From the NCBI GenBank assembly GCA_027451885.1, contig DAIDHX010000006.1, positions 1 to 45,368 on the forward strand: a DNA stretch of 45,368 nt. The letters are read 5' to 3'. A program made the translations under genes and the position numbers. The notes below the pieces were generated by a model. It saw only the letters and a program-made list of their open reading frames with translations, had not been told where the DNA came from and ran no database searches. Shown here one piece after another: positions 26,573 through 28,803 of the stretch; position 1 is the first letter of the stretch; each line of letters opens with the position of its first letter. The DNA is from Planctomycetales bacterium. GTDB taxonomy: Bacteria > Planctomycetota > Planctomycetia > Isosphaerales > Isosphaeraceae.

Positions 26573-26967
26573 CGTCGCTGGGACTCCATCCAGGGTGATG
26601 CCTGCACGCCCTGATTATCTCCGCGCGCAGCCCCGATCGCCAAGTTGTTCCACCAAAGCTGGCGAATCGGCGTCTCAAGAGCGGCATTCGTGGGACTCGA
26701 ACGCCGGGCTCGATTCGTCCCGCGAGAGGGCGTTTTCGCAACGCCAGGCCGCGCCCTGTCGAGTCTGGGCAACGTCTTTTGCCCAATCAAGGCAACATTG
26801 ATCCCTAAATAATTAGGTCGAACTAGACTTCCATGGCGGCCAGTCGCCGCGTGGGTCGAGGGGAAGCACGTGTCTCACGGGAGGCATGAATCGCGCTTTC
26901 GACCGCGGAAATCGGAAAAGACAAAACGCAAAACATCAAAGGAATGTGCACATGGAGAACGCTTTCA
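26573..26967. promoter_or_regulatory. Divergent region with overlapping inverted repeats (uvrB / PEP-CTERM gene)
   Basis: About 395 bp between divergent genes. GGGCAA at 26767-26772 pairs with TTGCCC at 26779-26784, and the same TTGCC can instead pair with GGCAA at 26791-26795, giving two mutually exclusive small hairpins. Just beyond lies CCTAA-ATAA-TTAGG (26804-26817), a short AT-rich inverted repeat. No LexA-type box was recognised. Function is inferred from position only. Confidence 0.35.
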
Positions 26968-27696
26968 ATGAAGAACTCCGTCTGGAAGCACGGCTGGAAT
27001 CTCTTGCGTGGGTCTGCACTCGCGTGCGCTGCGTGGGCCATGCTCGCGCCGGCGTCGAGGGCCGATAGCCTGAGCTTTAGCGACCACAGCAAGTACCCCG
27101 GCGCCTTTGCCTTCAGTCTGTACGGGCACAATTATGATGCGTCCGGGGGCAGTATCACCGACACCACGTTGAACATCGGAGGAACCACGTACCACCCACA
27201 AGACGTCTACTGCATCGCCGCGACCGTCGATATCCAGGTGCGCGGCAACTACGACGTCACGGTCTCCACGACCGGAGACTACAACGGCAAGTTGATGAAC
27301 AACCCCGGTTCAATCGCCTGGCTGGTGGACAATCTGGCCTCGAGTGCAACCACCGACGTGCAGCAACAGGCGCTTCAGGCCGCGATCTGGACCGAGGTCT
27401 ACGGCGCAGCCAATTTCGTGCTCAACACCAGGAAGAATAGCAACACCCTGATCAGCGACTACAACAACGACATGCAAAAGCTGGCCTCGAACGTCGCACC
27501 GATCGACACACTGTACTGGCTCACGCCGTACCGCGTGACGCACCAAGACCATCACGAGCACACGACGATTTACCAGGGGTTGGTGACGCTCAACCCCAAT
27601 GCGATCGTGCCTGAACCGTCGTCGATCATTCTCGGGCTGATCGGTCTCACAGGTCCAGTCGGCCTGGCGCTCCTGCGCCGAAAGGCCGCCGCCTGA
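26968..27696 (+). CDS. PEP-CTERM surface protein with a probable Cys-Gln thioester domain
   Basis: A 242-residue secreted protein. The start at 26968 (MKNSVWKHGW) gives a signal peptide ending near ASRAD; GGAG lies 10 nt upstream. The C-terminus has VPEPSS, a hydrophobic helix and a final RRKAAA, the PEP-CTERM signal recognised by exosortase. The mature part contains VYCIAA (Cys82) and ALQAAIW (Gln137), which match the two landmark motifs of thioester domains that form an internal Cys-Gln bond in surface adhesins. GSIAWLVDNL between them also fits. If so, the protein could attach covalently to surfaces or polymers. The sorting signal is certain; the thioester is inferred from motifs. Confidence 0.8.
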   Translation: MKNSVWKHGWNLLRGSALACAAWAMLAPASRADSLSFSDHSKYPGAFAFSLYGHNYDASGGSITDTTLNIGGTTYHPQDVYCIAATVDIQVRGNYDVTVSTTGDYNGKLMNNPGSIAWLVDNLASSATTDVQQQALQAAIWTEVYGAANFVLNTRKNSNTLISDYNNDMQKLASNVAPIDTLYWLTPYRVTHQDHHEHTTIYQGLVTLNPNAIVPEPSSIILGLIGLTGPVGLALLRRKAAA

Positions 27697-27721: not shown

Positions 27722-27770
27722 AGACGCCGCGGCCGCTCGCCTTCGAGTGTCCGCGGCGTCTCTCTTTTTT
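27722..27770 (+). terminator. Rho-independent terminator after the first PEP-CTERM gene
   Basis: AGACGCCGCGG at 27722-27732 pairs perfectly with CCGCGGCGTCT at 27751-27761 (11-bp stem, 18-nt loop). CTCTTTTTT follows, with six T at 27765-27770. It lies 26 bp after the stop codon, in the right orientation to end that transcript. Confidence 0.88.
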
Positions 27771-28128
27771 GGCCGAGGACCTCGAGATCCCTGCCTCCGC
27801 GTGGGCATGCCGGCGCCAGGTCATCCGCGGGTCCTGGGTGTCGATCCACATCCCCAGGAATCCTACCTCGATCCGCCGAATCAACTCAGATCGTGTTTTG
27901 TTGTGCCTGAGGAACGCGAGGGATGCTTTTTTTAAGCGTCACGCCACGAACAGGGACGATTGGACTACTCTCTCGATCGCGGCGAATGGACGCACGCACG
28001 GGTTGATGGCGGTCCGACCGTGCCTCACTCTCTGGGACCGCCTCGGAACGTTCAGAATCGCCGTGTGCAGTTAAGCATGCATGTCACTGAACTTGGAATA
28101 GATGGTTCAAACTCTGGAGTGAATGTTC
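27771..28128. other. Gap between the two plus-strand PEP-CTERM genes
   Basis: About 360 bp with no convincing gene. Because a terminator ends the gene before it, the second PEP-CTERM gene must have its own promoter here; the AT-richer stretch around 28070-28120 is the likely place, but I see no clear boxes. Confidence 0.4.
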
Positions 28129-28803
28129 ATGAAGCGTTTTCTGGCACTGATTTCGTTGTCGGCCACGCTGGCGCTGGCTGCGCCCGCACGGGCCGATATT
28201 CTTTACACGTTCGCGAACAGCACTTTCAACGGCAGGAAGGGTACGGAGCAGGATTACACGGCGGGTACGTACACGATCAAAACCTACGGTTACAACTCAA
28301 CGTACACTGCCTCGCCCAAGACGCTCACGCTGGGCAGCGCGACCCGTCTCTACGCGAAGTACACGGCCGGCGATCCTGGCGAGACTGGCCTCGGCATCAA
28401 TAGCGATCCGACAGGCAACCACGAAATCACCACCAATACGAGCGTGAAGCTTGACATGACGAGTGTTCTGTCTGCCAACCCGAACTCATCCGTCACCTTC
28501 ACGATCGGGAGCGTTCAGAGCGGCGAGGGGTTCGCCATCTTCGGCGGCTCGACTTCGCCGAGCGACTTTATCTACCAGAAGACCGGGAGCGGTAGCACGA
28601 CGGTCTACGAGTATACGATTACGGCGGCCCAGGCTGCCGCCGCGGGCGATGTTTTCTACGTGACCGCGACGCACAACAATGTGCTGATCAACACGGTCGA
28701 TGTCGCGGCGGTTCCCGAGCCCTCGTCGGCGATTCTGTCGATCATGGGGCTTGGCTTCCTGGGCGGGGTTCGCTGGCTGCGCAAGCGTTCCCAGAAGGCG
28801 TAA
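28129..28803 (+). CDS. PEP-CTERM domain protein, function unknown
   Basis: A 224-residue secreted protein. ATG at 28129 (MKRFLALISLSATLALAAPA) is 9 nt from GGAG; the ATG at 28123 is too close to it. Signal cleavage is expected after PARAD. The mature part is rich in Thr, Ser, Gly and Tyr and looks all-beta, with no catalytic motif. VPEPSS, a hydrophobic helix and WLRKRSQKA form the PEP-CTERM tail. Such proteins are cut by an exosortase and reach the cell surface or exopolysaccharide matrix; the exosortase gene is not in this window. It lies between two other PEP-CTERM genes. Confidence 0.85.
   Translation: MKRFLALISLSATLALAAPARADILYTFANSTFNGRKGTEQDYTAGTYTIKTYGYNSTYTASPKTLTLGSATRLYAKYTAGDPGETGLGINSDPTGNHEITTNTSVKLDMTSVLSANPNSSVTFTIGSVQSGEGFAIFGGSTSPSDFIYQKTGSGSTTVYEYTITAAQAAAAGDVFYVTATHNNVLINTVDVAAVPEPSSAILSIMGLGFLGGVRWLRKRSQKA

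Follow-up and report, generated by a model that had tools for sequence, protein, structure and literature searches.

A thioester-domain-like protein with an exosortase sorting signal in a planctomycete, and its expected Cys82-Gln203 bond

PEP-CTERM proteins are exported proteins whose functions are mostly unknown. The gene at 26968-27696 of the window (the whole 45,368-nucleotide stretch analysed, a contig of a Planctomycetales bacterium) encodes one such protein, and the first-pass annotation had reported in it the paired Cys and Gln landmarks of a thioester domain (TED). This raises the question of whether a planctomycete protein carries a TED at all and, if so, which Gln would form the bond. 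Some Gram-positive bacteria use the reactive bond that such domains form within themselves to link covalently to their targets. At first survey, TEDs were reported as exclusively Gram-positive (PMC4450167). In these domains the thioester links the Cys of a [YFL]C motif to the Gln of a late ΦQζΦΦ motif located on a β-strand (PMC4450167, PMC6194298).

The features of the gene and its product are collected in Table 1. An alternative, longer start at 26944, yielding 250 residues, is possible from the open reading frame listing; we prefer the start at 26968 because the GGAGAA upstream is well placed as a ribosome-binding site. The YC, IAWLVDN (residues 116-122, between YC at 81-82 and ALQAAIW at 135-141) and ALQAAIW motifs and the PEP-CTERM tail were all found where the first-pass annotation had placed them. 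The tail scores above the cut-off of TIGR02595 (18.4 bits, cut-off 16) and just below that of PF07589 (19.3 bits, cut-off 20.7). In common with other PEP-CTERM proteins there is a signal peptide, recognised by eye, a C-terminal PEP, a hydrophobic stretch and a basic end, and the genome encodes two exosortases, both on contigs other than that of the window. What sets the protein apart from PEP-CTERM proteins is its mature part, which consists of the TED-like domain; none of the NCBIfam PEP-CTERM families scored above cut-off across this part of the 242-residue protein. A UvrB gene lies upstream on the opposite strand. On the 3' side, direct reading reveals what resembles a terminator (27722-27770), an 11-bp inverted repeat without mismatches around an 18-base loop, together with a T-rich run; a terminator scanner reported nothing 3' of the gene, the loop exceeding its limit. 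Directly downstream, 28123-28803 (plus strand) encodes a second PEP-CTERM protein, which matches Pfam at the tail only and is not TED-like.

Table 1 Features of the gene and its product, in window coordinates
Feature	Position	Strand	Basis
Gene, 242-aa exported protein with TED-like domain and PEP-CTERM tail	26968..27696	+	ORF reading, relatives
GGAGAA, likely ribosome-binding site for start 26968	26954..26959	+	Direct sequence reading
Predicted signal peptide, residues 1-32	26968..27063	+	By eye: hydrophobic stretch then ASRAD
TED-like domain, about residues 34-212	27067..27603	+	Family profile; Pfam TED 80-161 under cut-off
Cys82, expected thioester Cys, sole Cys in mature part	27211..27213	+	77/78 aligned domains
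Gln137 of ALQAAIW, helical TQxxΦW-type Gln, not the expected bond former	27376..27378	+	74/79 domains, literature
Trp141, helical motif	27388..27390	+	77/79 domains
Gln203 in IYQGLV (ΦQζΦΦ type), expected thioester Gln	27574..27576	+	73/74 aligned domains, literature motif
PEP-CTERM sorting signal, residues 215-238	27610..27681	+	TIGR02595, PF07589

The Pfam TED model (PF08341) matches the window protein over residues 80-161 at 15.3-15.9 bits (E 0.027), below the curated cut-off of 22 bits, and TED at this level and PEP-CTERM are the only Pfam families that match the protein. No other place in its own 6.18-Mb genome is TED-like at E ≤ 1, and a TED search of 14 control genomes at the same threshold yielded zero matches. 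The closest relative, L029 (41% identity over residues 16-240, E 6.8e-27), scores 23.5 bits, above the cut-off, unlike the window protein. When ten members of the family were scored singly, three exceeded the cut-off (L029 at 23.5, L043 at 25.6 and L087 at 25.7 bits), three fell below it and four had no TED match at E ≤ 1; Pfam already assigns a TED to some relatives of the window protein. TED is matched at E ≤ 0.1 by 22 of 36 domains that were collected without the TED model and include the window protein; the best match has 1.1e-7, and the other 14 domains have no match at this threshold. The only further Pfam family in this set is PEP-CTERM, seen with eight of the domains. The YC and ALQAAIW landmarks exceed chance resemblance, and the evidence supports a TED-like domain, with one conserved Cys and no other, in a planctomycete protein sorted by an exosortase.

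An AlphaFold model of residues 33-214 computed with four sequences reached a pLDDT of 43.0 and a pTM of 0.51, and one with the relative L047 placed first a pLDDT of 38.5 and a pTM of 0.35; both are too poor for measuring distances. The first low-confidence model (pLDDT 43.0) places helices at its residues 81-91, 98-113 and 127-139, an order as expected for a TED, whose fold pairs a β-barrel with a three-helix bundle and brings the Cys and Gln together. Foldseek and VIA-align searches with this model gave weak unrelated matches only, with no TED among them. Sequence searches of the PDB using the window protein and two family profiles likewise yielded no TED, a search with little power, as the TIEpLS20 domain run as a positive control also finds none. 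A profile-profile comparison with ten class II TED domains produced no alignment.

The class I TEDs (SfbI, CpTIE, PnTIE, Cpa; PF08341; PMC4450167) have in common with the window protein the [YFL]C motif, the helical Q..ΦW and the late ΦQζΦΦ Gln. Their Cys-Gln spacing of about 120-150 (129 and 153 in two cases; PMC4450167) is also like that of the window protein, at 121. The latter differs in its planctomycete host, in an exosortase tail that replaces LPXTG, in having no stalk and in its Pfam score below cut-off. Class II TEDs (BaTIE, SaTIE, EfmTIE86, TIEpLS20; PMC6194298, PMC8092201) share the Y/F-C-[IV]-[DE] and late YQxL motifs, but contain an inserted β-sandwich and have spacings of 171-204 (171, 188 and 204 in three cases; PMC6194298, PMC8092201), and the window protein has neither. 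The class II insertion, which precedes the Gln strand, is about 75 residues long, whereas only 66 residues separate Gln137 from Gln203, and a Cys-Gln spacing of 121 leaves no room for it. In the case of TIEpLS20, Cys68 is reported as needed for function, with Gln256 as its modelled partner (PMC8092201); counting from Cys68, the invariant Gln of the class II alignment, in the motif YQRL, is indeed residue 256.

TEDs of Gram-positive TIE proteins sit on isopeptide stalks (PMC4450167). In contrast, a Pfam scan of the window protein reveals the TED-like domain alone, with no isopeptide or ester domain. The pairing of a TED with isopeptide-type domains does recur in giant planctomycete surface proteins that contain the same TED-like domain: SpaA and SdrD_B domains are present in all seven giants scanned, the best SpaA stretch ending 18-50 residues before the TED-like domain in each. 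Isopeptide bonds, known or predicted, are recorded for SdrD_B and for several SpaA families (PMC12617251). The 12 domains labelled as giant fall into one cluster of the tree (FastTree, midpoint root). One such gene, L045 1604-5572, encodes a 1322-residue surface protein of SpaA, TED-like and SdrD_B domains, in which LEDRRLLA stands close to the N-terminus. The product of the adjoining gene (L045 2-1519) reads like a fusion of an exosortase with a CPBP-type protease.

A profile alignment of 79 distinct planctomycete domains was used to compare conservation across 161 columns, for which the median is 27%. The two most conserved columns are Cys82 (77/78) and Gln203 (73/74), followed by Trp141 (77/79) and Gln137 (74/79). 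An alignment made independently with MAFFT from 59 domains agrees, with Cys82 in 58/59, Gln203 in 56 of the 57 with a residue at this place, and Gln137 in 56/59. Exactly one Cys is found per domain in 72 of the 79. The individual motifs of the window protein follow the TED pattern with some departures. Its Cys motif is YCIA, the fourth residue being Ala and not hydrophilic (D/E in most relatives); the helical TQxxΦW motif, between the Cys and the late Gln, is present as LQAAIW with Leu at the Thr place; and the late ΦQζΦΦ motif is present as YQGLV at 202-206, with Gly at ζ, where most relatives have D, G or N. The spacing of 121 lies within the 116-175 range (median 130) of the 72 domains in which both residues are aligned. 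Two members are without the Cys: L123, a paralogue at L090, has Asn at this place and has also lost the Trp, and L149 has no Cys in the domain and a late Gln that lies two positions out of register in the profile alignment.

We consider it likely that the window protein is an exported, exosortase-sorted, stalkless thioester domain with a Cys82-Gln203 thioester, which would act in covalent adhesion or in cross-linking of the matrix. Given the sub-cut-off Pfam score, the poor models, the absence of a TED among the PDB matches, the class II mismatch and the occasional loss of the Cys, we infer the thioester from residue conservation and from kinship via close relatives. Following export, the protein would be cleaved and sorted by an exosortase, and the compact domain presented without a stalk. 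During folding, Cys82 would attack the side chain of Gln203 with release of ammonia, leaving the internal thioester, while two residues of the central helix, Gln137 and Trp141, may pack against the Cys loop and support it. A nucleophile, most likely a lysine amine on an adjacent protein of the surface or matrix, could then open the thioester and become covalently joined to Gln203. Opening by a fibrinogen lysine has been reported for the thioesters of SfbI and FbaB (PMC4450167). Being stalkless, the short protein would more probably serve as a cross-linker of the matrix or envelope than as a long-range adhesin, and its covalent capture of other molecules, as envisaged in the first-pass annotation, is a predicted property; the giants are better placed than the short proteins for reaching targets.

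The expected partner of Cys82 is probably Gln203, and not Gln137 as had been proposed originally. YC and ALQAAIW are genuine TED landmarks, and Gln137 is itself kept in 74 of the 79 domains, as would suit a Cys82-Gln137 bond. However, the Gln of the helical TQxxΦW motif is reported as dispensable for the thioester in characterised TEDs (PMC4450167, PMC6194298), and the mutagenesis described in PMC4450167 found both the helical Gln and the Trp unnecessary. Among the planctomycete domains, five of the 79 have Ala at position 137 (L034, L058, L083, L127, L128); the tree (FastTree, midpoint root, printed without support values) places them on two distinct branches, and all five retain both Cys82 and Gln203. 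We therefore regard a bond to Gln137 as very improbable. The spacing of 55 between Cys82 and Gln137, which had been taken to fit, does fit that between the Cys motif and the helical TQxxΦW motif, but not that of the bond-forming pair, and the Cys82-Gln137 distance is the wrong one for checking the bond.

Two further explanations concern what the conserved residues are for. The TED fold and its motifs could be present while the thioester, or a buried Cys/Gln pair, contributes to stability or matrix packing only and captures no partner. The short proteins have no stalk for reaching targets, and L123 and L149 keep an open frame despite having lost the Cys, both of which suit such a role; these losses are rare, however, and the conservation of the Cys and Gln far exceeds that of the remaining columns, as expected of a reactive bond, making a purely stabilising function rather unlikely in our view. 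It is less probable still, to the point of being distinctly doubtful, that this is an unrelated exported domain that uses its lone Cys otherwise, for example in a disulfide-linked dimer, with the TED likeness arising by convergence of short motifs. The lack of a confident structural match and the failed class II profile comparison are in keeping with such an origin. Against it, 22 of 36 members have a TED match and, apart from the PEP-CTERM tail, no further Pfam match. Both the helical motif and the one with the late Gln are as in a TED, and so are the spacing and the isopeptide-type domains nearby; a disulfide would, moreover, leave the equally conserved Gln203 unexplained.

Extending the Cys82-Gln203 reading to the planctomycetes, both the order of the window and others in the phylum, we tentatively suggest a two-tier system of covalent adhesion outside the Gram-positives, which is quite possible though short of established. 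It would comprise short, exosortase-sorted, stalkless thioester proteins and giant thioester-isopeptide proteins, in which a Cys82-Gln203 (or equivalent) thioester couples the cell or matrix to amine-bearing neighbours. Should this be the case, covalent capture by a stalkless exosortase-sorted planctomycete protein would widen the settings in which thioester chemistry is used, and would provide a testable role for a class of PEP-CTERM proteins. Our literature search, with subscription papers and preprints outside its scope, found no paper on a thioester domain together with planctomycetes or with PEP-CTERM; papers that pair thioesters with PEP-CTERM, or with planctomycetes and adhesins, look unrelated from their listing.

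Relatives were collected first by similarity to the window protein and then by profile, with near-identical copies counted once. The window protein matches 16 of the 45 genomes of its order at E ≤ 0.01, in several of which the match is confined to the PEP-CTERM tail; a domain-only profile matches 30 of the 45 at E ≤ 0.001. Across the phylum, the same profile matches at least 24 of 392 sampled genomes at E ≤ 0.001, a lower bound as at most eight candidates were scored per genome. Tblastn searches of plasmids with the window protein and four other members gave, as far as the TED-like domain is concerned, either no match or matches expected by chance. A Streptomyces match from these searches was rejected, the record having no TED match at E ≤ 1. 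A match of L079 fell on SdrD_B repeats, the query stretch having run beyond the TED-like domain. Viral contigs searched with three queries contained no relatives.

For the family profile (A4), L013, L018, L020, L021 and L022 were left out of loci L007-L028 for want of a profile match, and four domains were omitted as truncated, gapped or degenerate: L028_-97, L086 (= L125), L076 and L090_-181 (= L123). As these four (L028_-97, L125, L076, L123) were already in the 59-domain alignment, 21 of the 25 domains outside A4 are new. The relatives L047 (Isosphaeraceae bacterium) and L048 (Aquisphaera insulae) are apparently further records of the L031 and L030 proteins, which come from genomes of the window's own family. 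Using a crude pattern, a PEP-CTERM-like tail was found on 57 of 64 short members (open reading frame under 450 residues). TED-like genes often occur as two or three neighbouring paralogues per 3-kb stretch, as observed at L010, L014, L011, L007, L087, L089, L066, L028 and L090.
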